Positions 43,205 to 60,388 of a stretch of 64,000 nucleotides of DNA are shown one piece after another (position 1 is the stretch's first letter; each line of letters starts with the position of its first letter). The notes under the pieces were generated by a model that made no database searches, had not been told where the DNA came from, and was given only the letters and a program-made list of their open reading frames with translations. The DNA is from Herbaspirillum chlorophenolicum (GTDB lineage Bacteria; Pseudomonadota; Gammaproteobacteria; Burkholderiales; Burkholderiaceae_D): the NCBI RefSeq assembly GCF_001189955.1, contig NZ_LFLT01000018.1:1-64000 (forward strand), in the 5' to 3' direction. The translations under genes were made by a program, and so were the position numbers.

Positions 43205-43624
43205 ATGCGGTCCGAAGAACTGGAGCAGTGGCTATTGGCGCTGCCCCTGTCGGAACCGTGTGAAATCGACGGCGAACGCGTTTATTTCAACATTGCCGAC
43301 GATGGCGCGGAGCTTGGCCTGATCTTGCTCCCGCACCCGTCCGACGCCCAGATTACCGAAGCCATCCGCGCCGGATTCCAGGGCGCCCTGGAGTTCGAGG
43401 CGGGCCTGGGCATCGGCGAGGATGGCGCATTGTTGCTCAATCGTTGGCTGCCCCAGGCCGAGACCTGGTTCGACGCCGCCGACGCACTCGAGGATTTGCT
43501 CAACCAGGCCGGTCTGTGGCGGGCCGCCCTGGGATACGTCACGAAGACCGGCATCCGGCGGGATACCGGAATCAATCGGGCCGAAGAGCGCTTGCGCGCG
43601 GCCATCAAGGGGGATACACCATGA
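43205..43624 (+). CDS. HrpG-position chaperone-like protein
   Basis: A 139-aa acidic protein with T3S chaperone features: N-terminal helix EELEQWLLALPLSE, strands around CEIDGERVYFNIADDG and LGLILLPHP, and a later helical part. It lies four bases after the 77-aa gene and overlaps sctC, the slot of hrpG. In Pseudomonas syringae HrpG binds the negative regulator HrpV; no hrpV is visible here. Confidence 0.65.
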   Translation: MRSEELEQWLLALPLSEPCEIDGERVYFNIADDGAELGLILLPHPSDAQITEAIRAGFQGALEFEAGLGIGEDGALLLNRWLPQAETWFDAADALEDLLNQAGLWRAALGYVTKTGIRRDTGINRAEERLRAAIKGDTP

Positions 43625-45720
43625 ACGTCAGAGAAACCATCAAGTCCTGGGGCATCGGCATGCTGCTGGCCGTGCTGCTGCTGTGGGGCACCACGCTGCA
43701 TGCGGCGGTGCCGGCGGCATGGAAGGATGGTGGATTTTCCATCAATGCCAATGGCCTGACGGTGCGCGGCGTGCTGGATGAATTTTCACGCACCTACGGC
43801 GTGCGCCTGCAGATGAGCGCCGACGGCGGCCAGATCATCAAGGGCCGGGTCAAGGCCGACAACGGCGTGGAATTCCTCAACCGGTTGACCGGTTCCTACA
43901 AGATGCGCTGGTTTGTCTACAACGATACGCTGTACGTGGTGCCGTCGACCGACAATACCTCCTCGCGCATGCAGGTCGGCGACGACGCCGTGATGGATGC
44001 CAAGGCTGCGCTGGTCGGCCTGGGCCTGTTCGATGAGCGTTTCGGATGGGGCGAGTTGCCGGACGAAGGCGTGGTCATCGTCAGCGGCCCGCGCGCCTAC
44101 GTGGACCTGGTGCGGGAGGTGCTCATGCCCACCGGCAAGAAGGAAAAACTGCGCGGGCGGCAGGTCATGCTGTTTCGCCTGACTTACGCTACTGCCAATG
44201 ACCGCGTCATCAATTCGCGCGGCAAGGCCGAGACCATCCCCGGCATCAAGACCATCCTCACCAATCTGCTCATGGGCGCGCATGGCGGTGAAAAACTCAC
44301 CGGCAGCAGCAACCGCTTCGACGCCGATAGCCGCAAGCGTTCGCGCACCGGCAAGATCAGCCGCAGCGAGTCAAGCGAAGGCAACCCTGGAAGTGGCGAG
44401 CGTTTTTCGCCCCTGTTTGCCGCACCCGGCAGTAACGGGCGCAACAACCTGATGGCCCCGGGCGCATCCCAGGGCGACTATGACAATGGCGCGGGCGCCG
44501 GTAACGGACAGGAAGGCGAGGGCAAGAACCAGCCGCCACGCATCGAAGCCGATCCCACCCTCAATGCCATCATGATCTATGACGACATCGCCAAGAAAGA
44601 GATGTATGCGTCGCTGATCGCCCAGCTCGACGTCAAGCCCCAGCAGGTCGAGATCGAGGCGCTCATCGTCGATATCGACCGCAGCCGGCTGGCCGAAATG
44701 GGCGTGGAGTGGGGCGTGCGCGCCGGAGTGGTCGATACCGTGGTCAACGGCACCACCACCCAGTCCAGAGGCACCAACCTGCCGTTGCCGGGCGCGACCC
44801 TGCTCATCAGCGATGCGGCGCGTTTCTATGCCCGCCTCAAGGCGATGGAATCGAACGGCGAGGCCCGCGTGCTGGCGACCCCGACCGTGCTGACGCTGGA
44901 CAATGTGGCGGCGGTGCTGGACCTGAGCCAGAGCGCCTACGTATCGATGATCGGCGAGCGCGTGGCCGACATGTCCGATATCACGGCAGGGACCATGCTG
45001 CGCGTGATCCCCCGCATCATCAATGACGGCGGCCACACCCGGGTGCGGATGGAAGTCGATATCGAAGACGGCTCGCTGAACAACAACGATACCAATACCT
45101 CGACCACCACCAATGGCAGCGGCAGCACCAACATCGCCGCCAGCGTGACCCGGTCGACCATCAATACCCAGGCCATCATCGATGCCCAGCAGACGCTGAT
45201 GATCGGTGGCTATCGTGCCGAGTCGCTGATCCGCAACAAGCAGAAGGTGCCGGTGCTGGGCGACTTGCCGCTGGTGGGCGGATTGTTTCGCAGCGAGTCC
45301 AAATCCAACAGCACCCGCGAGCGACTGTTCCTGATCACGCCGCGCATTACCAGTTTCGATGGCACCCGCCTGGCATCCAATACGGCAGCCCGCGGCAAGG
45401 CAGGCGCGGCGCCGGCCAATCCGATGCCGCCGACCGCGCCCCCATCGGCGCCAGGCATGCCGCCGATCCCGGTACCGGCGCCAGTCAACAGTTCGCAGAT
45501 ATTGCCGGCGCCTGCGGCAGCGGCCACCTCCAGTAGCACGCCACCGGCCATGCTGCCCCTGCCGGCGAATCCACCGGCGTCGAGTACGCAAAGCGCAACG
45601 GAAGAGCCGGCGCTGGCCAGTACGGCGCCTGCGGGTGGCTCGTTGATGGGGGTGCGCCTGCCGCTGCGCAAGACCAAGAACCGTTGCGTCAGGCCTGGCG
45701 GTATCGTCGGGATTCTCTAG
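43621..45720 (+). CDS. sctC: SctC outer-membrane secretin
   Basis: A 699-aa secretin. A signal peptide (MNVRETIKSWGIGMLLAVLL, cleaved after LHAA) is followed by N0/N1 and N3-type domains, then the secretin core with VEIEALIVDIDRSRLAEMGV, VLATPTVLTLDN and the closing block VPVLGDLPLVGGLFRS. The last 110 residues are Pro/Ala/Ser-rich, longer than usual, and could bind a pilotin or outer-membrane partner; no hrpT-like pilotin gene is apparent. A terminator follows. Confidence 0.95.
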   Translation: MNVRETIKSWGIGMLLAVLLLWGTTLHAAVPAAWKDGGFSINANGLTVRGVLDEFSRTYGVRLQMSADGGQIIKGRVKADNGVEFLNRLTGSYKMRWFVYNDTLYVVPSTDNTSSRMQVGDDAVMDAKAALVGLGLFDERFGWGELPDEGVVIVSGPRAYVDLVREVLMPTGKKEKLRGRQVMLFRLTYATANDRVINSRGKAETIPGIKTILTNLLMGAHGGEKLTGSSNRFDADSRKRSRTGKISRSESSEGNPGSGERFSPLFAAPGSNGRNNLMAPGASQGDYDNGAGAGNGQEGEGKNQPPRIEADPTLNAIMIYDDIAKKEMYASLIAQLDVKPQQVEIEALIVDIDRSRLAEMGVEWGVRAGVVDTVVNGTTTQSRGTNLPLPGATLLISDAARFYARLKAMESNGEARVLATPTVLTLDNVAAVLDLSQSAYVSMIGERVADMSDITAGTMLRVIPRIINDGGHTRVRMEVDIEDGSLNNNDTNTSTTTNGSGSTNIAASVTRSTINTQAIIDAQQTLMIGGYRAESLIRNKQKVPVLGDLPLVGGLFRSESKSNSTRERLFLITPRITSFDGTRLASNTAARGKAGAAPANPMPPTAPPSAPGMPPIPVPAPVNSSQILPAPAAAATSSSTPPAMLPLPANPPASSTQSATEEPALASTAPAGGSLMGVRLPLRKTKNRCVRPGGIVGIL

Positions 45721-45763: not shown

Positions 45764-45795
45764 AAGGGAGCGCCACGGCGCTCCCTTTGCGTTTT
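45764..45795 (+). terminator. Terminator after sctC
   Basis: AAGGGAGCGC pairs with GCGCTCCCTT across CACG, followed by TGCGTTTT. It ends the sctI-sctC operon, just before the next hrp-box-like promoter. Confidence 0.8.
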
Positions 45796-45823
45796 GGGGG
45801 CGCAGATTTTTTCGTCGGGCGGT

Positions 45824-45851
45824 GGAACTGCCGCTCAGCCAGTTTCACTCA
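45824..45851 (+). promoter_or_regulatory. hrp-box-like promoter upstream of the type IVb pilus operon
   Basis: GGAACT, 15 bases, then TCACTCA, with the same half-sites as the box at 18215. It lies 29 bp after the sctC terminator and points into the pilus region (pilL ATG 46286). The intervening 430 bp could be a long leader or carry a small gene. Confidence 0.6.
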
Positions 45852-45905
45852 TGTTCAGCGACCGGACAGTCAGGTGATGGCTGGGTGGTCGGCCAACAGG
45901 AAACG

Positions 45906-46109
45906 GTGTGCAAGGACGGCGAGATTGCTGTTTCGTCCAGTTCCGGTGCGGTCATATTTGTTGAGAATTTCACGCCCCGGTTTAGTTACACTGTGCAACA
46001 TGTTGAGACGGAAAGCGCCAGCAAACGCTGGCCGGGCAAGGACAGGGATCATCGCATGGCGTACCGCGCCGACGTTGAATTGTTCACTGCAATGGTGAGC
46101 AAGCGATGA
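45906..46109 (+). CDS. Possible small protein in the pilus operon leader
   Basis: A 67-aa frame from GTG 45906, preceded by ACAGGAAACG. Sequence MCKDGEIAVSSSSGAVIF with later YRADVELFTAMVSKR has balanced, protein-like composition, unlike the other frames here. It lies where hrpT or hrpV would be in Hrp1 clusters but resembles neither by eye and has no lipoprotein signal. The remaining leader (46110-46285) shows nothing recognisable. Confidence 0.35.
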   Translation: MCKDGEIAVSSSSGAVIFVENFTPRFSYTVQHVETESASKRWPGKDRDHRMAYRADVELFTAMVSKR

Positions 46110-46285
46110 AAGAGATGCAAAAGAATTAAGCAACATTCGAAACTCGGGCAACAGCACATTTTCAGGATTTCAAGCGATTTCAGGCCGGGCATTACCCGTT
46201 CCGTTTCGCACCGGCGGCCTTGCGCATGCAAGACGCAGGGGACTCTGTTTGCCTTTTTTTAACGTTGTCGTTCAAGGGATGCGTC

Positions 46286-46942
46286 ATGGTTCGCTCAAAC
46301 ATTGCAGGCTGCTGCCACGGCAGGCGGTTCAGGTTGGTGGCTTGCGCTTTTGTTGTCACGCTGGGCTCGGGCTGGGCCAGCCAGGCCGCTGCGCAAGCGG
46401 CGCTGCCGTCCATGAGGTATGTCGGTACCACGACCTTTGCCAGCGCCGAGGATGGCCGCTTCCAGTTGGTGGCCGGCGAGCCGGAACTGGATGACTGCGA
46501 CCCGTTGCCGCTGGCCAGGGCTGCGCTCGCCAGCGATACGCTGGTGCTGGCCAAGGCCGACACCGACAAGAAGCCGGTAGTCCGCCCGGCACGGGCCGGC
46601 AAGAGCGCTGTCACCACCGAAACCTTGATCGATGCGGCGCCAATGGCAGCCGCGCCGGCAGCCATCGCCGTGTCCGCCGACGCCACCCGCACCTGGGAGA
46701 TCGTCGTCTCCGACAAGACCCTCAACGCCACCATGGCGCGCTGGGCTGCTGCGGCCGGATGGCAACTGCTGTGGGAGTTGCCGGTGGACTATGCCGTCGA
46801 GGCCCGCACGCAGGTCCGCGGCACATTCGAAGAAGCCGTGTCGATCGTCGCCAGCAGCATGGAGTCGGCAGAAATTCCAATGAAAGCAGTCTTTTATCAA
46901 GGCAACAGAGTGTTGCGCATCATGGCCAAGGGGAGCGAATGA
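46286..46942 (+). CDS. pilL: PilL/TcpQ-type pilus assembly protein
   Basis: A 218-aa periplasmic protein; ATG 46286 follows AAGGGA. Signal peptide to about ASQAAAQA. The C-terminal 85 residues form the TcpQ-type domain (WEIVVSDKTLNATMARWAAA, WELPVDYAVEA, AVSIVASSM) found in PilL of R64-type pili and TcpQ, which assists the secretin. Much shorter than plasmid PilL. It overlaps pilN by four bases. Confidence 0.82.
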   Translation: MVRSNIAGCCHGRRFRLVACAFVVTLGSGWASQAAAQAALPSMRYVGTTTFASAEDGRFQLVAGEPELDDCDPLPLARAALASDTLVLAKADTDKKPVVRPARAGKSAVTTETLIDAAPMAAAPAAIAVSADATRTWEIVVSDKTLNATMARWAAAAGWQLLWELPVDYAVEARTQVRGTFEEAVSIVASSMESAEIPMKAVFYQGNRVLRIMAKGSE

Positions 46943-48747
46943 TGAGGGCCTATTCCAGCAAACTGCCGCTGCTGTTGCCGCTGGCAATCCTGATCGCCGG
47001 TTGCAGCGGGCTGGCCAACAAGCTTGAGGTCAAGGTTGACGAGGAGGCCGAACGCGCCGCTCGCCTGAGCCGCGACGTGGGCCGCACCGCGCCCGGCACC
47101 GTCATGCCGTCGTCCCCGCTGGTCAAGCACGAAGCCGGGATCTGGCTGGGCAAGACGCCGATCAAGCTAGGCCAGCCTTCGCTGCCGCCGATCTTCTATG
47201 AACCGACTACCTTTGATCGCACCATCAATTCGCTGACCGAACTGGCTGAACGGATCACCCTGCGCTCGGGCATACCGAGCAAGGTCAGCCCGGACGCGCT
47301 GGAAGTCTCCGGTGGCGCGTTCCGCTCGCGCGGCGTTCCGGGCTTGCCTGGCCTGCCCGGTGCGGCAGGACGCGGCGCCCCCGGCATGGTGCCGGGGGCT
47401 GGCCCCATGCTGCCCCTGCCCGCTGGCACTCCCGGCGAAGGCATGAGCAGCCCCGTGCAGCCGGGACGCGGCCCGGCGGCCAATACCGGCCAGGCCCAGC
47501 CGACCTTCACCGACATGCCCAATGGCGTGCGCATTGCCTATAACAGTGGCTCGCTGAAGGGCTTGCTCGATACCGCCGCCGCCCGTTTCGGGGTGTCGTG
47601 GAAGTTCAGCGATGGCGTGATCCAGTTCTTCCACACCGAATCGCGCAACTTCCAGATCAGCGCCATTCCGGGTGACTCGACCTTCTCGGCCACCGTCACC
47701 AGTGGCGCGACCTCCACCGGCGGCACCGGTGGTGGCAGTGGCGGCGGCGGCGGTGGTTCCGGTGGCGGCGGCAGCTCGTCCTCGGGCGTGAACGCCAACA
47801 ATACCCAGAACACCCAGGTCGCGTCCAAGCTGTCGGTCTATACCGGACTGGAGTCGGCGATCAAGGTGATGCTGTCGCCGTATGGCAAGGTGCTGGCTTC
47901 GCCTGCCACCGGTTCCATCACGGTGGTCGATACTCCTGATTCGTTGGAACGCATCTCGTCCTACATCGATGGCGAGAACAAGTCGCTGTCGCGCCAAATT
48001 GCCATCAACGTGACCGTGCTGTCGGTCATCTTGCGCGATTCGGACCAGTACGGTATCAACTGGACCGCTGTCTACCGCAGTCTCAACAGCAAATTCGGCA
48101 TCTCCAACGCCTATGAAGGTGCTACGACCACCGGCCTGGTGTCGTTCACCGCCGGCGTCCCGGCCGGCGGGACCTCCAAGTTTGCGGGTAGCCAGGCGGT
48201 GATGCAGGCGCTGTCCGAGCAAGGCCGGGTGCGGCGCCAGACCACCGCATCGGTGGTGACGCTCAATAACCAGCCGGTGCCGGTGCAGGTGGCGCGCCAG
48301 ACGACCTACCTGCAATCGCTGCAAACCTCGCTGGTAGCGCAGGTCGGGTCGACCACGTCGCTCACGCCCGGCGTGGTCACGGCCGGATTCAACATGAGCA
48401 TCCTGCCGCACATGCTGACCAATGGCACCGTGATGCTGCAGTTCTCCACCGACATCTCGACGCTGCGCCGCATCCGCACCATCATCGGCACCAGCGACTC
48501 CGACGGCAAGGTCACCTCGCAGATCGAGTCGCCCGAGCTGGACACCCGCAACTTCCTGCAGCGCGTGGCGATGAAGTCCAACGAGACCCTGATCATCAGC
48601 GGCTTCGAGCAGACCGACGACGACCTGGGCCGCTCGGGCGTCGGCGAGGCCAAGAACATGGCGCTGGGCGGTGGTTTCTCGGCATCCACCAACAAGGAGG
48701 TGATCGTGGTGCTGATTACCCCGGTGGCCATGGGCCCGGCGTCCTGA
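46939..48747 (+). CDS. pilN: PilN type IVb pilus secretin (lipoprotein)
   Basis: A 602-aa outer-membrane secretin with lipobox LIAGCS near the N-terminus. A Gly/Pro-rich stretch (about residues 133-190) and a Gly/Ser linker (about 258-285) separate the N domains from the secretin core, which includes AINVTVLSVILRDSDQYGIN and ends IVVLITPVAMGPAS. This is the PilN/BfpB class, distinct from the T3S secretin upstream. Confidence 0.93.
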   Translation: MMRAYSSKLPLLLPLAILIAGCSGLANKLEVKVDEEAERAARLSRDVGRTAPGTVMPSSPLVKHEAGIWLGKTPIKLGQPSLPPIFYEPTTFDRTINSLTELAERITLRSGIPSKVSPDALEVSGGAFRSRGVPGLPGLPGAAGRGAPGMVPGAGPMLPLPAGTPGEGMSSPVQPGRGPAANTGQAQPTFTDMPNGVRIAYNSGSLKGLLDTAAARFGVSWKFSDGVIQFFHTESRNFQISAIPGDSTFSATVTSGATSTGGTGGGSGGGGGGSGGGGSSSSGVNANNTQNTQVASKLSVYTGLESAIKVMLSPYGKVLASPATGSITVVDTPDSLERISSYIDGENKSLSRQIAINVTVLSVILRDSDQYGINWTAVYRSLNSKFGISNAYEGATTTGLVSFTAGVPAGGTSKFAGSQAVMQALSEQGRVRRQTTASVVTLNNQPVPVQVARQTTYLQSLQTSLVAQVGSTTSLTPGVVTAGFNMSILPHMLTNGTVMLQFSTDISTLRRIRTIIGTSDSDGKVTSQIESPELDTRNFLQRVAMKSNETLIISGFEQTDDDLGRSGVGEAKNMALGGGFSASTNKEVIVVLITPVAMGPAS

Positions 48748-48757
48748 GGAAGATGAC

Positions 48758-50023
48758 ATGGCCGGCTATATCACCACACTAGAGAAGCACAAGTTCGTCT
48801 GCGGCCTGTTCTGGCAATCGCTGTCCAAGCCGCGCGAACTCAACCGTGAAGCCGCCGAGCTGGGCCGCCGGATCGATTCCGACCTGATGGTGGTCCGCAT
48901 GGACCACACCACGGCCCAGGCCGGTTTTGCCCAGACCAGGGACGGCATCAAGCGCGGCATGTATTCGCTGGCCGCGGTGGTATCAAAGACGCTGGCCATC
49001 GAAGGTGCGTTCTACGACGGCGAGCAGCAACCGGTGCACAACTGGCTGGGCGCCTTCAAGCTGCCTGACGGCCACTGGGTCTACTTCGCGGTGCGCGACG
49101 CCAACTTCCTGCCCAATGGCGACTTCGCCGGCACCAAGGAAGAGGTGCTCGACCGCTTGCACAACGATTACGCGCTGGGCGGATGGAACGTGGTGCTGGG
49201 TGAGGACGAGTTGCGTTCGTTCGGCTTTCACAACTTCCAGCCGCGCGACATCAAGAGCTTCATCCCGCAGCGGCCGGACGGCAGCATCCGCATCCACAAG
49301 TGGTGGGGCATGCGCCAGATCGGCGGCCGCCCCAGCTGGGTGCCGATGGCCGCTGCCGCCGCCGTGATTGGCGCCGTGGCGCTGGGCGGCACCTACGGGT
49401 GGAAGATCTACCAGCAGAAGAAGGAAGAGCGTGAACGCGAGATCGCCATGCAGCAGGTGCGCGAAAGATTGATGCGCGAAGCCTCGGTGGCCGCGCGTCC
49501 CTGGGCCAAGAAGGCCTCGCCGGTGAGCCTGATGCAGAGCTGCCAGAAACAGTTCACCCATCCCACGGCAGGCGGCTGGGTGCTGGAGTCCTATACCTGC
49601 ACCCAGGAGGCGCAGACCTATGCATGGGGCCGGGGCATGTCGACCGTGGCCATGTTGCGCGAGCAGATGCCGGACGCCGTCGTGGAAGCGACGGGAGAGC
49701 GTGCCAGCTACGCGCGCCCCCTGAAATTGCAGGCGCCGCAGAACGAAGATTTGAAAGACACCCGCGAGACGCTCGAGCCGTTGCTGTCGCGGCTGCAGAT
49801 GATGGGGGTGCCGATCAAGGTCAGCACTGCGCCGACGCCGCAATTGAATACGAGCGACCAGCAGTGGCAGCCCAATTGGCGCAGTTACCTTTTCAAGCTC
49901 GTCGCCGGCGGCATGGAGCCGCTGGAGATCGCCGAGATTCTCAACCGGCCGGGTGTGCGGGTCGACAAGGTGGTTTATCAAGGATCCCAGTGGATCATGG
50001 AGGGAACGATATATGCGAAATAA
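48758..50023 (+). CDS. pilO: PilO pilus accessory inner-membrane protein
   Basis: A 421-aa protein with GAGGAAGATGAC before the ATG. One membrane segment lies near residues 195-215 (PMAAAAAVIGAVALGGTYGW) between an N-terminal cytoplasmic domain and a C-terminal periplasmic part. Size, topology and order (N-O-P-Q) match R64 PilO, part of the inner-membrane assembly platform. It overlaps pilP. Confidence 0.88.
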   Translation: MAGYITTLEKHKFVCGLFWQSLSKPRELNREAAELGRRIDSDLMVVRMDHTTAQAGFAQTRDGIKRGMYSLAAVVSKTLAIEGAFYDGEQQPVHNWLGAFKLPDGHWVYFAVRDANFLPNGDFAGTKEEVLDRLHNDYALGGWNVVLGEDELRSFGFHNFQPRDIKSFIPQRPDGSIRIHKWWGMRQIGGRPSWVPMAAAAAVIGAVALGGTYGWKIYQQKKEEREREIAMQQVRERLMREASVAARPWAKKASPVSLMQSCQKQFTHPTAGGWVLESYTCTQEAQTYAWGRGMSTVAMLREQMPDAVVEATGERASYARPLKLQAPQNEDLKDTRETLEPLLSRLQMMGVPIKVSTAPTPQLNTSDQQWQPNWRSYLFKLVAGGMEPLEIAEILNRPGVRVDKVVYQGSQWIMEGTIYAK

Positions 50024-50519
50024 GACCATTGCGCTCAAGACCGCTATTGCAGCGCTGGCGGTAGCAAGCGGGACGGCGTTTCCCGTCCACGCCGAGAGCA
50101 CCTCCGAGAGCCTGACCCGGATCGAGGCCGAGACCATGGTCTTGAAGGCGCGGGAAAAGCAGCTCGAAGTGCAAGCCAGCATCGTCACCAAGCAAAACGA
50201 GATCGCTGCCCGGCAAAGCGTGACGGCCGCGCTCAACCAGCCCGAGGTGGTGGGCGACCCGGTGGTGCGCGCCATCGAAGGCATCGGCAGCCGCATGTAT
50301 GCCACCTTGCAATTGAGCGATGGCAGCATGGTCGATGTGCAACAGGGCGACACCCTGCCCGGCGGGATGAAGATTGTCGCGGTGCACCCGCGCGAGGTAC
50401 TGGCATCCAACAAGGGACGCCAGTTCCGCCTGGGAACCTATGCGCCGGTGCTGACCGGATTCAACCCGAACTTCCCCGGACCGGGCGTGCCTCCGGCTGC
50501 ACGAGGAGTCGCGAGATGA
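50013..50519 (+). CDS. pilP: PilP pilus biogenesis protein
   Basis: A 168-aa periplasmic protein, starting at ATG 50013 within the pilO end (GGAGGGAACGATAT upstream). Signal peptide ends near PVHAES. A helical region is followed by a small beta domain with LSDGSMVDVQQGDTLPGGMK, the R64 PilP plan. It overlaps pilQ by four bases. Confidence 0.88.
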   Translation: MRNKTIALKTAIAALAVASGTAFPVHAESTSESLTRIEAETMVLKAREKQLEVQASIVTKQNEIAARQSVTAALNQPEVVGDPVVRAIEGIGSRMYATLQLSDGSMVDVQQGDTLPGGMKIVAVHPREVLASNKGRQFRLGTYAPVLTGFNPNFPGPGVPPAARGVAR

Positions 50520-52129
50520 AACTGCGCCTGCCACGCCGCCGCGAACAGCCGCAAGGCACGCCCGCCGGCACCCATGACGACGTACCGCGCTTCGACGGCC
50601 TGCAGGTGTTGAGCCACGGCGGCCTGTTCGAGGCCAGCCAGGAAGAGCGCAAGCTGCTGTGCCTGCTGGGTGACGGCCGTCTGCTGGTCGTGGCCGGACA
50701 AGAGCTCAATCCCCATGTCATGTCCTACCAGGGACGGCTGGAGCGGCTGGGGCAGCCGTATCAGGTGGAGTCCAGCGGGGTCGAGGTGATCTACCGCATC
50801 AACCGCATCGGCGGCGTGTTGCCCGAGGAGCGCCACCAGGAGCACACTATGATGCAGGTCACCGCCAAGGACCTGCTCAACAAGGCTTGCCGTTCACGCG
50901 CCTCCGATATCCATCTTCGGGTGCGCAAGAACTGCACCGAGATCTACTTTCGCATCCACAACGACCTGGTGCCGGTAGGCGGCCAGACCCGCGAATATGG
51001 CGACCGCCTGCTGGCTACCTTGTATGGCGCCATGACCTCGGTCTCGGATAGCTCCTACAAGCCCACCGAGCGCCAGGACGCCGCCATCTCGGATCGCGAC
51101 AAGCTGCCGCCGGCGCTGTACGGCGTGCGTATTGCCACCGTGCCCACCAGCGAAGGCTCGGTCATGGTGATGCGTCTGCTCTATAACGATGCCGGCGACA
51201 ACATCGATCTGCGGCCGCTGGGTTTTTCCGAAGCCCATGCCATCGCGCTGCAAAAGTTGAAGGAGCAGCCGGTCGGCCTGAACATCATCAGCGGCCCCAC
51301 CGGCTCGGGCAAGTCGACCACGCTGCAGCGGGTGCTGACCGGCGAGATCATCGAAGCCGAAGGCAAGCTGCACGTGCTGACCATCGAGGACCCGGTCGAA
51401 TACCCGATCGAAGGCGCGGTACAGACCGCCGTGACCAATGCCGGCAGCGAAGAAGAGCGCTCGCGCGCCTTTGCCGCCGCCATCTCCAACGCCATGCGGC
51501 TGGACCCCGACACCATCATGATCGGCGAGGTGCGGGATCGCGCCACCGCGCAAAACGCCCTGCGCGCCTCGATGACCGGGCACCAGGTGTGGACCACGGT
51601 GCACGCCAACAGCGCCCTGGCCATCGTCGACCGACTGCTGGACCTGGGTTTGCCCGCCAGCCTGGTGGCCGACCACCACGTGGTGACCGGCCTGATCAGC
51701 CAGCGCCTGGTCAAGAAGCTGTGCCAGTGCTGCCGGCAGCCGCTGGCGAAGAATCCCGAAGCGCTGCCGCCGGCCATGCTGGCGCGGGTGCGCCAGGCGG
51801 TGTCGGCCAATCTGGAAGGTGTCTGCGTGACCGGCCCGGGATGCGAAGAATGCAAGGGGCAGGGTACGGTGGGACGTTCGGTGGTGGCCGAGATCATCAT
51901 CCCGGACGACCATTTCTTCCGACTGGTGCGCCAGGGAGAGAAGACCGAGGCGCTGAAGTACTGGGTCAACGAACTGGGCGGCAGGACCATGCTGGAGCAC
52001 GCCATCGAGAAAGTGGCGCGCGGCGAACTCGACCCGCGCATGGCCGAGCGGGTGGTGGGTCACCTGGTCTATGACCGCGCGCCGGTGTTGCCCTTTCTGA
52101 CCGTGGTGGAGGGGCGCAGTGCTACCTGA
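50516..52129 (+). CDS. pilQ: PilQ type IVb pilus assembly ATPase
   Basis: A 537-aa GspE/PilB-superfamily ATPase. Walker A GPTGSGKST lies near residues 259-267, Asp-box LTIEDPVEYPIEGAVQT follows, Walker B-type TIMIGEVRD and His-box TTVHAN come later. Near the C-terminus paired cysteines (CQCC and CEEC) form the metal-binding tetracysteine element of extension ATPases. Powers pilus assembly with PilR. Confidence 0.95.
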   Translation: MKLRLPRRREQPQGTPAGTHDDVPRFDGLQVLSHGGLFEASQEERKLLCLLGDGRLLVVAGQELNPHVMSYQGRLERLGQPYQVESSGVEVIYRINRIGGVLPEERHQEHTMMQVTAKDLLNKACRSRASDIHLRVRKNCTEIYFRIHNDLVPVGGQTREYGDRLLATLYGAMTSVSDSSYKPTERQDAAISDRDKLPPALYGVRIATVPTSEGSVMVMRLLYNDAGDNIDLRPLGFSEAHAIALQKLKEQPVGLNIISGPTGSGKSTTLQRVLTGEIIEAEGKLHVLTIEDPVEYPIEGAVQTAVTNAGSEEERSRAFAAAISNAMRLDPDTIMIGEVRDRATAQNALRASMTGHQVWTTVHANSALAIVDRLLDLGLPASLVADHHVVTGLISQRLVKKLCQCCRQPLAKNPEALPPAMLARVRQAVSANLEGVCVTGPGCEECKGQGTVGRSVVAEIIIPDDHFFRLVRQGEKTEALKYWVNELGGRTMLEHAIEKVARGELDPRMAERVVGHLVYDRAPVLPFLTVVEGRSAT

Positions 52130-53192
52130 TATCAACCGCCTGTGGGCCAAGACGCAATTCACCGATACGGCGCGGCTGCGCCTGTACCGCAAGATGTCCA
52201 AGATGCTCAGCAACGGTTTGCCGCTGTTGAAGGTGCTGGAAGAATTGCGCGACCGCGAATCGCATAACGGCAAGAAATCCAAGGAGCCGCTGGCGATCAT
52301 CCTCGACGATTGCCGCCGCAGCGTGCAGAACGGCCGGCTGCTGTCGGAAGCGCTGGATGGCTGGGTGCCGAAGTCGGAGCAGATGATCCTGATGGCCGGC
52401 GAGCAGTCCGGCAAGCTGGAGCCGACCCTGATCTCGGTGGTCAACGTGGTCCAGGCGCGCAAGAAGATCAACGCGGTGATCGTGGGCGGCATGGCTTATC
52501 CGCTGGCGATCCTGGGCTTGGTGCTGTCGTACATCTACCTGTTCGGGGCCAAGGTCATTCCGCAATTCACGACCATGATGGACCCCAACAAGTGGCAGGG
52601 GGCGGCGCGCTCGCTGTACCTGATGTCGCTGTGGGTGCAGCACTGGATGGGATGGACCTTGTTGGGCATCGCCGTGGCGCTGGTGATCCTGTTCGCGTCG
52701 CTGCCCCGCTGGCGCGGCAGCCTGCGCATCTGGGCCGACCGTGCGCCGCCTTATTCGATCTATCGCCTGATGGTGGGCAGCGGTTTCCTGCTGGCGTTCT
52801 CGGCCCTGCAAGGCGCCGGCGTGACAGTGGAAAAGGCGCTGATGCGCTTGTCCAGCGGCGCCCAGCCCTGGTTGCGCGAACGTCTCGATGGCGCGTTGCT
52901 GGGCGTACGTTCGGGCCTGAACTGTGGCGAGGCGTTGCGCAATACGGGATATCAGTTTCCGTCGAAGGAAGTCATCGACGATCTCTGCGTCTATGCGGAG
53001 TACAAGGGATTCGCCGAGGCCTTGCAGCTGTTGGCGGATGAATGGATGGAGCAGGGGGTGGAAATCATTTCCCTGCGCATGAAGCTGGTCAACGGACTGG
53101 CGGTGGTCACCATGGCGGTGGTCATTGGTTGGCTGGTGATCGGGTTCTTCGGGATTCAGCAGGAAATTGCGGCACTTGCCCGCGCTCATTAA
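52119..53192 (+). CDS. pilR: PilR pilus inner-membrane platform protein (GspF family)
   Basis: A 357-aa polytopic protein beginning at GTG 52119 inside the pilQ end, with GGAGGGGCGCA upstream. Two T2SSF-type repeats with RKMSKMLSNGLPLLKVLEEL and MRLSSGAQPWLRERLDGALL, plus three to four membrane segments, match PilR/TcpE/BfpE. Confidence 0.93.
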   Translation: MLPDINRLWAKTQFTDTARLRLYRKMSKMLSNGLPLLKVLEELRDRESHNGKKSKEPLAIILDDCRRSVQNGRLLSEALDGWVPKSEQMILMAGEQSGKLEPTLISVVNVVQARKKINAVIVGGMAYPLAILGLVLSYIYLFGAKVIPQFTTMMDPNKWQGAARSLYLMSLWVQHWMGWTLLGIAVALVILFASLPRWRGSLRIWADRAPPYSIYRLMVGSGFLLAFSALQGAGVTVEKALMRLSSGAQPWLRERLDGALLGVRSGLNCGEALRNTGYQFPSKEVIDDLCVYAEYKGFAEALQLLADEWMEQGVEIISLRMKLVNGLAVVTMAVVIGWLVIGFFGIQQEIAALARAH

Positions 53193-53231
53193 TGCTCTTA
53201 ACGCAGTTCTTTCTTCCAACAGGGGTTAATC

Positions 53232-53783
53232 ATGCACGTCGAAAAAATGAGTGGTTCACACGCCAGGGAAATTCGCTCCAACAGCAAGGTCGCCCGCCAG
53301 CAAGGCGCGTCGCTGCTGGAAGGCATTGCCTACCTGGGCATCGCCGCCATCGTGGTGATGGGGGCGATCTCGCTGCTGACCGGCGCCTTCAGCAGCGCCA
53401 AGTCGAACCAGGCCAATGAAGAAGTGATCGGCTTGCGTACCGCGGTGCGCAAGCTGTATATGGGGCAGACGTATCCAACCGCCGGCATCCCGACCCTGCT
53501 GCAAACCGCCAAGGCCGCGCCCGGCACGCTGGCCGCCGACGGCACCACGCTCAAGAACAGCTGGGGCGGCACAGTAGCCATCGCCGGATCCGGAACCGGC
53601 TTCCAGATCACCTATCCATCGGTGCCGAAAGACGTTTGTGTGAGCATGTTGTCGGGCGCCAATGGCTGGACCTCGGTGCAGACCAACGGTGGAACCACCC
53701 TGACTACTTTCCCGCTCACGGCCGATAACGCCACTACCCAGTGTTCGGCGGCCGACAACTCCATCGTCTACACATCGAGCTGA
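53232..53783 (+). CDS. pilS: PilS major type IVb prepilin
   Basis: A 183-aa prepilin. A 25-residue leader ends RQQG, cleaved before ASLLEG, with Glu at mature position 5 and a hydrophobic helix (IAYLGIAAIVVMGAISLL). Long leader and small non-Phe first residue mark type IVb. Two cysteines in the C-terminal half (DVCVSM and TQCSA) give the usual disulfide loop. No pilU-type prepilin peptidase lies in the window, so processing must use one elsewhere. Confidence 0.94.
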   Translation: MHVEKMSGSHAREIRSNSKVARQQGASLLEGIAYLGIAAIVVMGAISLLTGAFSSAKSNQANEEVIGLRTAVRKLYMGQTYPTAGIPTLLQTAKAAPGTLAADGTTLKNSWGGTVAIAGSGTGFQITYPSVPKDVCVSMLSGANGWTSVQTNGGTTLTTFPLTADNATTQCSAADNSIVYTSS

Positions 53784-53855
53784 TTACCGGCGCTGTGACG
53801 AATGCGCTGGCGGGCGCAGCTGCACCCGCCAGCCCGACCTAACGGAGGGCTCCTC

Positions 53856-54353
53856 ATGTGGAACGCTGCAGTAGTGGCCATCCTGATCGCGGTGGCGGGC
53901 GTGTTTGCAACCAAAAACTCGCGGACGCTGGATGGCGTCCAGGCCAGCCTGGCCGCCAGCACGGCGGCCGAGATGGGCATCTATCGCAACGCCGTCATCA
54001 ATTATTTCACCGCGCATGATTCAAGCCCGGGCGTCGTCACCACGGCCGTCCTCAAGAGCGGCGGCTACCTGCCGTCGTGGAGCCGCCTGTACCAGCAGAG
54101 CACGCCGCTGGCATGGAGCAATTACCGCGACGCCTCCGGCATCATCTACATCTACACCACGACGCTGCCGGACCGTAATCTGGTCGCCGAACTGGCCAGC
54201 CTGGCGCAGAACTCGGTCTTGTTCGGCGTCTATGACAGCACTACCAACAAATTGCAGTCGCCGACAGCCGGCAACACCAATATCCCGACCTCCGCCATTT
54301 CCGCCATGTCGATCCCCAACGGTGCGCCGGTGTGGATCGCAATGATCAAATGA
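53856..54353 (+). CDS. pilM: PilM-like pilus protein
   Basis: A 165-aa protein; ATG 53856 follows AACGGAGGGCTCCTC. A hydrophobic N-terminus (AAVVAILIAVAGVF) is followed by a soluble Ser/Thr/Ala/Tyr-rich region. Size and layout match R64 PilM, an accessory protein of unclear function. In R64 it precedes pilN; here it lies between pilS and pilV, so the order is rearranged. Confidence 0.75.
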   Translation: MWNAAVVAILIAVAGVFATKNSRTLDGVQASLAASTAAEMGIYRNAVINYFTAHDSSPGVVTTAVLKSGGYLPSWSRLYQQSTPLAWSNYRDASGIIYIYTTTLPDRNLVAELASLAQNSVLFGVYDSTTNKLQSPTAGNTNIPTSAISAMSIPNGAPVWIAMIK

Positions 54354-55798
54354 ACATGATGCCGACCCGTCCTCCTTCTGCCATGCGTCGCCAAAGCGGT
54401 GTTGCGATGCTCGAAATCCTCGGTGCGCTCGCCATCGGCGCCATCCTCGTGATGAGCCTGTCCAGCATGATGGATACCTCGCTGGAAGACACCAAGGGCC
54501 AGCAGGCGTCCTATTACCAGTCGCAGATCGTGGCCGCCGGGCAAAAATACATCGCTGCCAAGGCCGCCACGCTGACGACTTCATTGCCGGCAGCGGGATC
54601 GTTGCTGGCGGTAGGCGTGGCGCAACTCAAGACTGAAAAATTCCTGTCCGATGGGACCGCTGCCAAGAATGTCTATGGCCAGACGCCGTGCGTGCTGATC
54701 CGCCAGCCCGATCCCGGCGGCAACCCGGGCAAGTTCGATGCGCTGGTGGTCACTACCGGCGGCGACCAGATTCCCGAGAAAGTGCTGCCCGTGGTTGCCG
54801 CCAACGCCGGACCCAACGGCGGTTATATCAGCACCTTCGACTTCAACAACGCCAAGGGAAGCAACTGGAGCAGCAGCACGACCTCTTATCGGACCACCAC
54901 CTGCAGCGGGGGCACCAACCTGAGCGGTAGTGCCAGCGACGGCGGCCACCTGGCATCCAATCTCTTTTTTGATGGGCCGGGGCAGTCTTCTGCCGATTAT
55001 CTCTATCGCAATGTTATTTCCGGGCGTCCCGAGTTGAACCGGATGAATACGCCGATCCGCATGGCGGACATGGCGCTGGTGAGCTCCGGAGCGAGCTGCC
55101 TCGATGCGGATGGCGTGAACCGGGCTGCCGTTGCCATCGACTCCGTCACGCGCGGCCTGCTGGTATGCGGCACGAACAACGTATGGAGTTCGCCCTCGCA
55201 GTGGAAAGACCCGGTGCAGAACTACGCCGACCTTCCAGGCGCCGGCAATACGGCGGGCGACGTGCGCATGGTCAGGGGCCTGGCGCGCGCCTTCACCTTT
55301 AACGGTGCGAACTGGGTCGCGCTGGCGGTGGACCAGAACGGCAACATGAACGTGCCCGGCACGTTGACCGCCGGCGATGTCACCACCGGCAATGTCACCG
55401 CCAGCAATGTGAATGCCGGCAACGTCAATGCCTCGCAAAATATCGTGGCCGGTGGAACTATTCATGCCACTGGCGACATTAGTACTAGTAACAACGTTTC
55501 GGCCGACCTGGACGTCAACGCCGCGCGTGCGGTCAATGCAAAGGACGTCTATGTCGCCCATAACGTGGTCACCGAGGGGGTGCAAGTCAATCGCTGGATA
55601 TCGTCGCCGGCTTTCACCGTCGGCAACAATACCTTTGTCGCCGGTACGCCTTGCAACTATGCGATTTACGATCCGTGGGAAAACTCGACCCACATCGTGT
55701 ATCCGTTCGGGACGATCGTCATGGACAGTAACTACCGGCCGCTTATTTGCGGCGCAGACAAGACAATGAGATATGCAAATGGAACTTATTCACCCTGA
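54350..55798 (+). CDS. pilV: PilV minor pilin/tip adhesin
   Basis: A 482-aa prepilin-like protein. Leader ends RRQSG, cleaved before VAMLEILGAL. The shaft domain (about residues 20-330) is followed by a repetitive VTxxNVxAxNV region typical of trimeric fibre stalks and a C-terminal knob with two cysteines (GTPCNYAIYD, RPLICGAD). R64 PilV is the tip adhesin whose knob is varied by a shufflon; no recombinase or inverted knob cassettes are seen here. Confidence 0.88.
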   Translation: MNMMPTRPPSAMRRQSGVAMLEILGALAIGAILVMSLSSMMDTSLEDTKGQQASYYQSQIVAAGQKYIAAKAATLTTSLPAAGSLLAVGVAQLKTEKFLSDGTAAKNVYGQTPCVLIRQPDPGGNPGKFDALVVTTGGDQIPEKVLPVVAANAGPNGGYISTFDFNNAKGSNWSSSTTSYRTTTCSGGTNLSGSASDGGHLASNLFFDGPGQSSADYLYRNVISGRPELNRMNTPIRMADMALVSSGASCLDADGVNRAAVAIDSVTRGLLVCGTNNVWSSPSQWKDPVQNYADLPGAGNTAGDVRMVRGLARAFTFNGANWVALAVDQNGNMNVPGTLTAGDVTTGNVTASNVNAGNVNASQNIVAGGTIHATGDISTSNNVSADLDVNAARAVNAKDVYVAHNVVTEGVQVNRWISSPAFTVGNNTFVAGTPCNYAIYDPWENSTHIVYPFGTIVMDSNYRPLICGADKTMRYANGTYSP

Positions 55799-56255
55799 AC
55801 GACCCCGCTGGCTGGTGCGCCTGCTGTTGCAGACCGCCGCCCTGATCCTGGCCTGCCTGGCTTGCGCGCCGGCACTGGCTTGCTGGAATGAGGTGGCTTC
55901 GTGGTACGGCGTCAACGTGCACCTGCTGTACGCGATCGCCAAGACCGAGTCCAACCTGAACCCCAAGGCCATGAACAAGAACAAGAATGGCAGCTATGAC
56001 ATCGGCATGATGCAGATCAACAGCAGCTGGCTGCCAACACTGCGCAAGTACGGTGTTACCGAAGAACAATTGAAGGACCCCTGCGTGAATCTCCAGGTGG
56101 GGGCCTGGATCCTGGCCCAGAACATGGCGCGCATGGGCCTGACCTGGGAGGCGGTAGGCGCTTACAACGCGCGTAATCCGCAACTGCGTATCAAGTATGC
56201 CCAGAAGGTATACAAGAACATACCCCAAGAGATACTGATGCAGGCGTCCAGATAA
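55773..56255 (+). CDS. pilT: PilT-type (R64) lytic transglycosylase
   Basis: A 160-aa exported SLT-fold enzyme overlapping the end of pilV; ATG 55773 or 55779. Signal peptide ends near PALAC. Catalytic Glu lies in AIAKTESNLNPKAMN, followed by YDIGMMQINSSWLPTL and AVGAYNARNP. It opens peptidoglycan for the pilus. It could also serve the injectisome as IagB/HrpH-type enzymes do. The name follows R64; it is unrelated to the retraction ATPase PilT. Confidence 0.9.
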   Translation: MQMELIHPERPRWLVRLLLQTAALILACLACAPALACWNEVASWYGVNVHLLYAIAKTESNLNPKAMNKNKNGSYDIGMMQINSSWLPTLRKYGVTEEQLKDPCVNLQVGAWILAQNMARMGLTWEAVGAYNARNPQLRIKYAQKVYKNIPQEILMQASR

Positions 56256-56642
56256 TGTTAATGGGCCCCGGGCCAGGCTTGAAGGCAATGCGCAAATGAT
56301 TTAAACGCGAAAGGGAGGTGGCATGCATCCTTCGATTGAATTTTCGCTCGACCTACGATATTTCGCTCAATTGGCCGGTTGATGACTCAGCAGGCGGGAT
56401 ACCGTTATGTACGCATAAATATTAGTTTTTGCGAACAATTGCGACGGCGCGAGCAGGTATAGTAGACTCCCCTTTCATGATGTCAGTTGTCGGACCGATC
56501 ATGGAAAACACCTTTGGTGGGCGGTCAAATCCTTGCACAGCCCGGGGTCGCGGCGGTCAAACATGTCGGAGAAAGCAGCGGGAAGCAGTCCGTCGCTCTC
56601 CCATCAAGACTAAAAAGTGCTTTACAAAAATCAGGTGGCCGA
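56256..56642. promoter_or_regulatory. Intergenic region with possible sigma-70-type promoter
   Basis: This 387-bp gap separates the pilus operon from the ATPase gene. An AT-rich patch (56410-56440) precedes TATAGT at 56458-56463, a plausible -10 element, but no convincing -35 at standard spacing. No hrp box is seen. The longer reading frame that would start at 56487 lacks a ribosome binding site. Confidence 0.35.
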
Positions 56643-57740
56643 ATGTCAAATGACCATTTCCACGCACGCGATCTCCAACGGGAATTGCTCGCGCTCGTCA
56701 ACTCTACGCAGACTTTCTCGGACATTCATATCGAGCAAGACCAACCGCTGATGCTCAAGACGCCGCGCGGTTGGCAGCAGGTGCACGATATGCCGGTGTC
56801 GATCGAAAACCTGGCGCCGTTGCTGGCGGCCATTGACGAAGACTGGGAAGACAAGATCATCGATGGCGCGCTGGATTGCCCGTTCGTGCTGGGGGAATGG
56901 CGCTTGCGCTGCAATATCTACCGCATGGGACGCGGCAGCAAGGTCGCCGTCTCGATCCGCCGCTTTCCGCTCGAGCCACTGGCGCTGGAGCGCACCGGTT
57001 TGCCAAGTTACGTAAAGACGGTGCTCGAAGCGACCAAAGGCATCATCCTGGTGACCGGCCCCACGGGCGCCGGCAAGACCACCACCATTGCGTCGATGCT
57101 CGATTACATCAATTCGACCCGGCATGGCCACATCATCACCATCGAAGAGCCGATCGAATACGAGCTGCAACGCAAGCAGTCGCTGATTTCGCAAAAAGAG
57201 GTTCCGACCGACACTGAAAGCTTTTCGTCAGGATTGCGCGAGGCGTTGCGGCAAAAGCCGGATGTGCTGATGGTCGGCGAGATCCGTGATTTCGATACCG
57301 CCGACACCGTCTTGCACGCCGGCGAATCGGGCCACCTAGTGCTGGCTACGCTGCATACCAGCAGCGCCGTGCGCGCCATCACCAAACTGTTGAGTTTCTT
57401 TCCGCAGGACCAGCGCGCCCAGCGGGCTGCCACGCTGGCCGAGAGCCTGGTGGGGGTGATCTTCCAGAGCCTGTTGCCGTCCGAAGACGGCGAGCATCAC
57501 GTCATGGCCAGTGAAATGGTGTTCAACAACAACCAGCAGATCGCCGCCTACATCAATGACCCGGCCAAGCTGCACATGATCAATGACTTCATGAAACGCA
57601 AGGAAGACAACATGTCGCGCAGCCTCAACGAAGTGCTGTTGCAACTGGTGCACAAGAAGAGCGTATCGGCGCGCGATGCGCTGCGGGTGGCCTACAACCG
57701 GCTGGAACTGCATGAAATGCTCAACAGCGCCAAGCGCTAG
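56643..57740 (+). CDS. PilT-family pilus retraction-type ATPase
   Basis: A 365-aa ATPase with AGGTGG before ATG 56643. Walker A GPTGAGKTTT lies near residue 139, Asp-box TIEEPIEYEL, Walker B-type VLMVGEIRDFDTADTVLHAG and His-box ATLHTSSA follow. Length and lack of the tetracysteine element fit PilT/PilU retraction motors, not extension ATPases. R64-type clusters normally have no such gene, so this pilus may retract. A terminator follows. Confidence 0.88.
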   Translation: MSNDHFHARDLQRELLALVNSTQTFSDIHIEQDQPLMLKTPRGWQQVHDMPVSIENLAPLLAAIDEDWEDKIIDGALDCPFVLGEWRLRCNIYRMGRGSKVAVSIRRFPLEPLALERTGLPSYVKTVLEATKGIILVTGPTGAGKTTTIASMLDYINSTRHGHIITIEEPIEYELQRKQSLISQKEVPTDTESFSSGLREALRQKPDVLMVGEIRDFDTADTVLHAGESGHLVLATLHTSSAVRAITKLLSFFPQDQRAQRAATLAESLVGVIFQSLLPSEDGEHHVMASEMVFNNNQQIAAYINDPAKLHMINDFMKRKEDNMSRSLNEVLLQLVHKKSVSARDALRVAYNRLELHEMLNSAKR

Positions 57741-57765
57741 ATAGCGTACACGGCGTCATGCCCGG

Positions 57766-57796
57766 AAGCGACCTTCGAATGAAGGTCGCTTTTTTT
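57766..57796 (+). terminator. Rho-independent terminator
   Basis: AAGCGACCTTC pairs with GAAGGTCGCTT across GAAT and is followed by TTTTT. Ends the retraction-type ATPase transcript. Confidence 0.92.
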
Positions 57797-57899
57797 ATGC
57801 CTTCCGTATCCCGATGGGCCAACCGGGATAGGGCGGGCGCGCGGCCACCTGTTCCTGTGTCCTGGGGCATGAATTTTCTCTCAACGATCTTCAATGTCC

Positions 57900-57928
57900 G
57901 GAACCACACTTGCTGCACCGGGCACCCA
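57900..57928 (+). promoter_or_regulatory. hrp-box-like promoter of the chaperone-effector operon
   Basis: GGAACC, 16 bases, then GCACCCA (one mismatch to CCACNNA), 27 bp upstream of ATG 57956. Confidence 0.6.
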
Positions 57929-57955
57929 TGGGTGAAACCACAACAAGAGGAACCC

Positions 57956-58357
57956 ATGTCCAGAAGCCGCTTTATTGAATTGACCAATGACTTCTGCGCG
58001 ATCGCCAATATCGATCAGCCAGAACTGATGGTGCAAGGTAACGCCATCGAAGTCGATGGCATCGATTTTTTCGTCCAGTACGATGAGGAGTTCTCGCCCG
58101 ATCACCTCATCGTCTATTGCGATTTCGGCACGCCCCCCCAGGAGCGCCTGCTGGACGCCTATCAGGCCCTGCTCGAAACCAACATGCTGATCTACGCAGC
58201 CAATTCTCCCGCCTTCATGCTGGGGCCGGACCAGCGCGTAACGTTCGGCTACCAATGCCGGCTCAACGAGCTGCGTGCACCCGAACTGATGACGATCCTG
58301 CTCAACCTGGCCGAACAGGCCAGGGATTGGCGCACCGACCATTTCCTGGACGCCTGA
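57956..58357 (+). CDS. CesT/SycE-type type III secretion chaperone
   Basis: A 133-aa acidic protein with AAGAGGAACCC before the ATG. Helix-strand layout of class I chaperones: RFIELTNDFCAIANI, then IEVDGIDFFVQYDEE, LIVYCDFG, a long helix around YQALLETNM and a final LLNLAEQARDW helix. It is a paralogue of the product at 15520. The next gene encodes an effector candidate, the usual chaperone-cargo arrangement. Confidence 0.8.
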   Translation: MSRSRFIELTNDFCAIANIDQPELMVQGNAIEVDGIDFFVQYDEEFSPDHLIVYCDFGTPPQERLLDAYQALLETNMLIYAANSPAFMLGPDQRVTFGYQCRLNELRAPELMTILLNLAEQARDWRTDHFLDA

Positions 58358-59861: not shown

Positions 59862-60388
59862 TGACCATCATGCTTGACCTGACCCAATCGCAACCGCCAT
59901 CGTGGATGGCCTTTGAACATACCCGCCACGTGCGCTGGCACGAGATCGAGGCCATGGTGCAGCGGCACCAGGCCGAGATTGCGGCGCGCTACGACTTGCT
60001 GGTGGCGATCCTGCGCGCCGGCAGTCCGGTCGCGGCTCTGATTTCCCGCAGTACCGGTTTGCCCATCGACTATCTGGTCTGCAGTCGACGCAATCCCCAG
60101 CCGCAGTTCCTGGATGGTCCGGCGCGGGCGCCGCACGGGCGCCGTATCCTGCTGGTGGACGATGTCTGCGGCAGTGGCTGGACCTTTGAACGCTGCCGGC
60201 GCTACTGCGAAAGGCTGGACAACCAGGTCGGCACCTTCAGCGTGTTTCGCTGTGACGCGCCTGGCATGTTCGCACCCGATTTCAGCATGGACGCCGATCC
60301 GCGCCATTACCTGCGCTGGCCCTGGGAGTACCAGGTTGAAAGCGAGATGCCGGGGTATGCGCAGGCGATCGCGGATCACGCGGCGTAG
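59861..60388 (+). CDS. Orphan type I phosphoribosyltransferase-fold protein
   Basis: A 175-aa protein with AAGAGGCTTG before ATG 59861. The PRPP-binding loop ILLVDDVCGSGWTF lies near residues 90-103, and LLVAILRAGSPVAALIS forms the PPi-loop strand and helix. This is the PRTase fold, similar to xanthine-guanine or orotate enzymes but with a divergent hood. Coupled to the effector candidate in the same operon, unlike housekeeping PRTases. It could act in the cell, or be exported; the substrate is unknown. Confidence 0.78.
   Translation: MTIMLDLTQSQPPSWMAFEHTRHVRWHEIEAMVQRHQAEIAARYDLLVAILRAGSPVAALISRSTGLPIDYLVCSRRNPQPQFLDGPARAPHGRRILLVDDVCGSGWTFERCRRYCERLDNQVGTFSVFRCDAPGMFAPDFSMDADPRHYLRWPWEYQVESEMPGYAQAIADHAA

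Follow-up and report, generated by a model that had tools for sequence, protein, structure and literature searches.

Why is a type IVb pilus operon embedded in a type III secretion system (T3SS) locus, and are the two machines made together? The question is raised by a stretch of 64,000 nucleotides from Herbaspirillum chlorophenolicum (NCBI RefSeq assembly GCF_001189955.1), here called the window, which comprises bases 1-64000 of the 103.7-kb contig NZ_LFLT01000018.1 in a draft genome of 5.3 Mb. In the window, a pil operon lies between sctC, the gene of the T3SS secretin, and a chaperone-effector operon. A first reading of the letters of this stretch (the original prediction) had placed the pil operon under the sigma factor of the T3SS. 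I performed a bioinformatic analysis of the locus and its relatives. With a probability of about two in three, an R64-like type IVb pilus is evolutionarily coupled to the Hrp injectisome and is partly co-expressed with it through a promoter with two inputs.

The pilus genes were identified with Pfam and NCBIfam, and they bear out the R64-type set that had been read between sctC and the chaperone-effector operon. They lie on the forward strand at 46286-56255 in the order pilL-N-O-P-Q-R-S-M-V-slt. The pilL gene (46286-46942; scanned as the open reading frame (ORF) 46220-46942) encodes a TcpQ domain (PF10671, 91 bits), and pilN (46942-48747; scanned as ORF 46759-48747) encodes a type IVb secretin (TIGR02520, 496 bits against a cut-off of 288). 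They are followed by pilO (48758-50023; PF06864, 164 bits), by an ORF at 49953-50519 which is pilP-like by its position and by a weak T2SSB match (24 bits, below the cut-off), by pilQ for the assembly ATPase (50516-52129; T2SSE, PF00437, 254 bits), and by pilR for the inner-membrane platform protein (52119-53192; T2SSF, PF00482, 96 bits). The major pilin gene pilS lies at 53232-53783 (PF08805, 70 bits); as read from the sequence, PilS has a long leader of 25 amino acids and a mature start, ASLLE, that does not begin with Phe. Next come the pilM ORF (53802-54353, its start probably near 53857; PF07419, 36 bits), pilV for the minor tip pilin (54356-55798; Shufflon_N, PF04917, 58 bits), and a lytic transglycosylase gene corresponding to PilT of R64 (55773-56255; SLT, PF01464, 81 bits). 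Thus, a TcpQ-domain PilL, a PilN secretin, PilO, an ATPase, a platform protein, and an SLT protein occur together, as in R64-type arrays, and PilV has the Shufflon_N constant region. The next gene (56643-57740, forward strand) encodes a second ATPase of the PilT/PilU retraction family (TIGR01420, 300 bits, just under the cut-off of 319), whose best relatives of solved structure are PilT proteins (211 bits). Its kinship to PilT suggests that the pilus may be retracted.

What might control these genes? The T3SS cluster upstream of pil contains sctV, D, N, Q, R, S, T, U, I, J, and C, and the clustering of sctC, J, V, N, R, S, T, U, Q, and D is that of an Hrp-type injectisome. The sctC gene, with which the cluster ends, lies at 43444-45720 on the forward strand (TIGR02516, 414 bits). 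Inside the cluster, on the reverse strand at 23875-24615, lies the gene of a sigma factor that is of the extracytoplasmic function (ECF) type by both Pfam (Sigma70_r2, 65 bits; Sigma70_r4_2, 34 bits) and NCBIfam. Its putative identity as HrpL rests on its position in the cluster, the hrp boxes, and the literature; the name HrpL is absent from the best 25 of its 88 NCBIfam matches. Another ECF gene on the contig (86060-86635) was considered as hrpL and rejected, since FecR and TonB receptor genes follow it.

The HrpL-regulon pattern GGAAC(C/T)-N15/16-(C/T)CACNNA is present upstream of pilL, the first gene of the operon, in the form of the hrp box GGAACT-N15-TCACTCA at 45824-45851 on the forward strand. 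Exact matches to GGAACT-N15/16-TCACTCA were found in the window only at 45824 and 18214 (0 expected), in agreement with the earlier observation that the pilL half-sites match those near 18215. A looser pattern has 7 matches in the window against 0.19 expected. A still looser one has 26 matches in the whole genome, 11 of them on this contig, and its reversed control has 43; thus, the genome-wide total is uninformative, and only the clustering on this contig counts.

Is the box under constraint? I compared 12 orthologous sctC-pilL gaps of the Herbaspirillum type, including that of the genome under study (G000; other G and L codes denote genomes and loci of relatives). The box is kept in 8 of the 12, against 0.016 expected as the mean of 2000 shuffles; the gap of G025 was used with the sctC end untrimmed and thus includes about 300 nt of coding sequence. 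Between loci, the half-sites are 89% identical, the spacers 35%, and the flanks 40-42%. In a wider survey of 51 pil loci, of which the 48 with more than 600 nt of upstream sequence were usable, a box precedes pil in 15 (G000 included), against 0.12 expected. Outside the Herbaspirillum-type loci it occurs in the metagenome-assembled genome MAG 67-32 (L060), in Rugamonas rubra, and in five Massilia-type loci (G164, G189, G208, G228, and G248). An hrp box ahead of sctI, about 5-6 kb before the position of the pil box, is present in all 11 genomes whose T3SS region was covered. HrpL control of pil through the hrp box, as predicted from these sites, is thus clade-dependent. The patchy distribution suggests that some lineages brought pil under HrpL, perhaps on more than one occasion. 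A Ralstonia-type hrpII box was not seen on inspection by eye.

It had been stated that the hrp box is the only promoter-like element after sctC. This does not hold. About 100 nt downstream of the box, at 45950-46006 on the forward strand, lies a second promoter-like element consisting of GGTCATATTTGTTGAGAAT and a TAnnAT-like hexamer (TACACT here) that begins 30 nt from the anchor. The sequence GGTCATATTTKTTGAGA is common to all 12 Herbaspirillum-type loci, where the hexamer follows 30-31 nt from the anchor. With up to 2 mismatches allowed, this genome has a single copy of the first 18 bases of the element. Loci of Duganella, Pseudoduganella, Undibacterium, and others share this core, which is often repeated directly (TGTTGAG-N3-TGTTGAG). 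In total, 27 of the 48 usable loci have the second element, 18 of them without an hrp box, and 9 of the 48 have both. It is also present in L062, L065, and L068, where the flanks examined show no sctC; their genomes do have an SctD match, at a distance of 452 kb in the first, on a different contig in the second, and at 18 kb in the third. The element was not found in Massilia-type loci, where the hrp box may have replaced it. A search of the pilL leader against Rfam for a riboswitch gave nothing above noise. The second element is probably an older pil promoter that likely depends on an activator, and its wide conservation makes exclusive control of pil by the sigma factor unlikely. Thus, the original prediction stands as far as the constrained hrp box goes (8 of 12 and 15 of 48 loci), and loses the claim of exclusive control; it had itself named two things that would speak against it, and the second element fits one of them, an independent pilL promoter.

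Is the joint locus common in the family? The order sctC-pilLNOPQRSMVT-ATPase-cesT is preserved in all 12 Herbaspirillum-type loci, with the CesT proteins of G019 and G025 only 28-29% alike within the otherwise preserved order. The junction is therefore not unique to this strain, and the conservation across relatives that the original prediction asked for is found. In a draw of 61 genomes, 34 of them of the same genus as the window, PilO was found in 12, all within the genus, and a close SctV (at least 82% identity) was found in the same 12. In a family-wide draw of 392 genomes (thresholds of E 1e-12 for SctD and E 1e-40 for PilO), 45 had SctD and 48 had PilO; 42 had both, where 5.5 would be expected. 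The Fisher p of 3e-46 is overstated since the genomes are related. SctD was found without PilO in G016, G070, and G259, and PilO without SctD in G102, G196, G349, G381, G384, and G399. Of the 42 genomes with both, 37 have them on a single contig, no more than 52 kb apart in 35 cases, and the remaining five have them on separate contigs; among the five is G004, whose sctC adjoins pil. A species-level scan of 84,980 genomes (one per species), queried with two conserved PilO peptides, yielded at least 40 named pil loci, 20 of which have an sctC match (at least 46% identity) upstream of pil. Ten loci of Burkholderia, Paraburkholderia, and Robbsia (L081-L090) have no secretin match above 30% to sctC. 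In Alcaligenaceae bacterium SAGV5 (L058), a pil locus has a chaperone gene and an effector-like gene downstream and no T3SS match in the approximately 9 kb upstream.

The history of the locus was compared with that of the species, for which FlhA served as a one-gene proxy. By FlhA, G000 pairs with G021 (98%) and G007 with G022 (97%). By the T3SS core, G000 is nearest to G007 (96%, against 87% to G021), while its pil core is about equally near to G021 (95%), G007 (94%), and G022 (93%). The pilL gene sides with the T3SS half (88% to G007 and 64.5% to G021). From this pattern, it seems that the T3SS and pilL were exchanged together within the genus with the joint locus left unbroken. Between G019/G025 and G020, FlhA is 96% identical, the T3SS core 79%, and the pil core 71%, and between G020 and G010 the T3SS (96%) and pil (94%) exceed FlhA (92%). 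In these cases, the two halves appear to have moved or diverged together.

The pilus might instead be controlled mainly from above HrpL. In Rugamonas rubra, slt, the gene of an OmpR-type response regulator, and hrpL follow in this order on one strand. With the Rugamonas regulator as the query, homologues of at least 48% identity, checked with Pfam, were found in at least 20 of the 44 other sequences scanned, a lower bound since several sequences ended before the expected site. They lie between slt and the second ATPase gene, divergent from pilL (Massilia-type), between slt and hrpL, or downstream of effector genes. In G000, the regulator gene is just beyond the window (64757-65512 of the contig, reverse strand); in G019 and G025, it is about 10 kb downstream of sctC, as is the hrpG gene published for H. 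rubrisubalbicans, and the candidate is therefore probably HrpG. In this scheme, the OmpR-family regulator would bind putative CTCA/TGAG direct repeats at the effector operon and at the hrpL and older pil promoters, and the hrp box of pil would be a feed-forward link added later. I regard this as possible, at less than even odds. The repeat YCTCAAC..TTCAA..CTCA..YTCA is conserved in 19 of 22 hrpL upstream regions; here it reads CTCAAC..TCAA..CTCA..TTCA (24731-24765, reverse strand). A matrix trained on the hrpL upstream regions only, and applied to find the best site within 500 nt, picks the older pil element in 14 of 14 element-carrying loci outside the Herbaspirillum type and L060 (p 0.005-0.075 each), although the loci are related, so that the p-values are not independent, and the repeat at pil lies on the other strand from the one at hrpL. 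The pil element scores like shuffled sequence (p 0.11-0.91) in L060 and in all 12 Herbaspirillum-type loci, among which only G000 and G007 have a significant matrix site, 36 nt further on (p 0.035). A regulator shared by hrpL and pil is thus plausible outside Herbaspirillum and unproven within it. At the effector operon, whose hrp box lies at 57900-57928 (forward strand, pattern match), the repeat TCTCAACGATCTTCAA stands directly before the box (57879-57894, forward strand) and is the second-best matrix site in the window (21 bits). With up to 1 mismatch allowed, the genome contains 8 matches to the hrpL-repeat pattern, against 2 for the control, and only the match at 57879 is perfect. YTCA-N6-YTCA precedes the effector-operon box by 20-21 nt in 6 of 10 loci (G000, G007, G010, G020, G021, and G022), against 1 of 1000 shuffled stretches; it is missing in G001, G004, G031, and G032. 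Also weighing against this explanation is the third-best matrix site in the window, at 6721, which is strong and has no evident meaning. A wider proposal would join these elements into one composite system of the Herbaspirillum/Massilia/Duganella family, in which a common CTCA/TGAG direct repeat lets the OmpR-type regulator of the locus activate hrpL, pil, and an effector operon, and in which control of pil by HrpL through a hrp box came later, perhaps repeatedly (in Herbaspirillum, Massilia, and Rugamonas); this is tentative, and I would sooner doubt it than adopt it. As a separate observation, the conserved repeat is absent upstream of hrpL in G001 (L035/L036), where other sequence is found, while hrpL itself is an 80% match.

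Two simpler explanations dispense with a regulatory tie. It is unlikely that pil and the T3SS only travel together as a genomic island and that the pil hrp box has little effect on pilus output. An island has been proposed (PMC3093359, in the part of the text available), either both the pilus and this T3SS type or neither of them was found in every one of the 34 genomes of the genus, and many loci lack a pil hrp box; yet the half-sites of the box are kept while the spacers have diverged, and boxes precede pil also in lineages with a rearranged T3SS. In addition, G089 and G211 have both PilO and an SctD match, which lie as far apart as 2.0 Mb and 452 kb, respectively, although these SctD matches, just 39% and 34% alike, may come from a different T3SS. 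Transcription of pil from the sctC operon, which would make a promoter of its own unnecessary, has very little probability. The two genes are adjacent on the same strand, about 570 nt apart here, and the gaps of the Duganella type are short. However, two terminator-like hairpins stand after sctC and before the hrp box (45764-45806, forward strand; found by a scan in which 1.2 are expected by chance), and similar stems with paired base changes were seen by eye after sctC in G007, G021, and G022. Two constrained promoter-like elements lie within the gap, and in Massilia-type loci the genes are about 1.9-2.0 kb apart with a divergent regulator gene between them.

Several observations weigh against the preferred reading, in which the pilus is coupled to the injectisome and partly co-expressed with it. 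The hrp box is missing ahead of pil in 33 of the 48 usable loci, and 15 of the 48 have neither the box nor the second element. Four of the 12 Herbaspirillum-type loci (G001, G031, G019, and G025) lack the pil box while retaining the sctI box. Seven named Duganella and Pseudoduganella loci (L061, L064-L067, L069, and L091) also lack it, four of which (L066, L067, L069, and L091) carry a box ahead of sctI. At the second element, a sigma-70 consensus promoter was looked for and not found, and the spacing of the element is unusual; this departure makes an activator likely. In G000 itself, the T3SS and pil halves have partly different histories, as their nearest relatives differ. Finally, in a dual RNA sequencing study of H. 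seropedicae with maize (PMC10965572, available part), T3SS genes were not differentially expressed, and pilV was repressed in one comparison, where it is not stated which pilV is meant.

How would the two inputs of the coupled system work? One would be the older promoter at 45950-46006, probably activator-dependent, from which the pilus could be produced without HrpL. The other would be the hrp box at 45824, an addition recognised by HrpL, the ECF sigma factor whose gene lies at 23875-24615. In species with a pil hrp box, production of HrpL would raise expression of the T3SS operons, pil, and the chaperone-effector operon together. The most likely task of the pilus would be to attach the bacterium or bring it into close contact, either ahead of injection or in its course; its retraction may be driven by the PilT-family ATPase. 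Transcription, order of action, and function are what I infer here from the arrangement of genes and sites.

The original prediction also held that the arrangement is not a standard one, which needs a qualifier: the adjacency itself is already known. In H. seropedicae SmR1, pilNOP-gspE-bfpE-pilSVT were reported in 2011 to be contiguous with hrp/hrc, along with HrpL, hrp boxes ahead of hrp/hrc operons, and a possible island (PMC3093359). In its available part, that account assigns no hrp box to pil, and a second element, an association across the family, and a connection with an upstream regulator do not appear in it. H. rubrisubalbicans M1 has a similar HrpL-type cluster with six hrp-box operons, pil not being among them, and with hrpG about 10 kb downstream of hrcC (PMC3487950, available part); the whole words "pil" and "pili" are absent from that text. 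In enteropathogenic Escherichia coli, a type IVb pilus (the bundle-forming pilus) and a T3SS, that of the locus of enterocyte effacement (LEE), are likewise under common regulation by the per operon, as PerA induces bfp and PerC activates LEE1 (PMC6094958, available part). There, in contrast, bfp and per are mostly plasmid-borne and apart from the LEE, and regulation is by PerC and an activator of the AraC type rather than by an ECF sigma factor. In the available text of RNA sequencing papers on H. seropedicae, no test of HrpL on pil was found. Other candidate precedents were rejected: TapV of Ralstonia, considered as a parallel to the second ATPase, is a FimV-like LysM/TPR protein (PMC7214476); no injectisome genes are reported for Janthinobacterium (PMC8929069); and the type IVb pilus of Hamiltonella is a Tad cluster to which no T3SS link is made (PMC5322557), each as far as the accessible text goes. 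The words pilus, pili, adhesin, and attachment are absent from the study of the P. syringae HrpL regulon (PMC3879358). No report of an HrpL-controlled type IVb pilus or of a family-wide association was found in the open-access PMC literature, in so far as its texts were available. Compared with that literature, what is apparently new is the hrp box under constraint ahead of pil, the older second element, the association of pilus and T3SS across the family, and the candidate for a regulator acting upstream.

The thin pili of R64-type conjugative plasmids (pilL-V) share their protein set with this locus. The order of the R64 pil genes is similar to the order here. Plasmid-borne PilO relatives are distant, the best-ranked being 42% identical and all 92 matched records below 60%. 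Compared with R64, a PilT-family ATPase is added, and no prepilin peptidase (PilU) was found among the ORFs of the locus scanned with Pfam, the rest of the genome not having been searched for one. In the predicted structure of PilV, whose quality is modest (mean predicted local distance difference test score 70.9, predicted template modelling score 0.40), no adhesin domain was recognisable, and no PDB match was found at E 0.001 or better. The pilus transglycosylase (55773-56255) has as its best NCBIfam match the T3SS protein IagB (131 bits, below the cut-off of 208) and might work for both machines. Pseudoduganella namucuonensis (L061) has two PilV matches in one pil locus, at 18167 and 19701. 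An additional ATPase-like match, 25-32% identical to the ATPases of the island, lies between pilS and pilM in L061, L071, L074, L075, L076, and L080.

Further genes of the window are recorded here. The chaperone-effector operon begins with a gene for a CesT-type chaperone (57956-58357, forward strand; PF05932, 34 bits; scanned as ORF 57758-58357). Behind it, on the same strand, are ORFs for candidate secreted proteins (58407-59861, 59858-60388, and 60714-63380); those of 484 and 888 amino acids have no Pfam match, and another has a phosphoribosyltransferase domain. At 16869-17947 (forward strand), behind a hrp box at 16780, there are several tiny ORFs of about 50-70 amino acids, some with a similar KKGRD..QL end. 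A similar tiny ORF in Rugamonas (L076:20987-21142) is also behind a hrp box; such ORFs possibly encode needle or filament subunits. A methyltransferase gene with a MethyTransf_Reg domain lies within the T3SS cluster (21666-23282, forward strand). On the reverse strand, an ORF of 1627 amino acids at 7778-12661 has no Pfam match, and the left edge holds a two-partner secretion pair (TPS, ShlB; 1834-6633).

To my knowledge, the contact of bacteria with a plant or other host cell that precedes type III injection is poorly understood. The kept linkage and the promoter sites suggest that the pilus and the injectisome may be used together on meeting a host, in Herbaspirillum and in several soil and plant relatives. 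A pilus kept with the injectisome across the family, and preceded by a constrained hrp box in several lineages, is a testable candidate for this contact step. The natural variation between pil operons with and without the box would allow two wiring designs to be compared.

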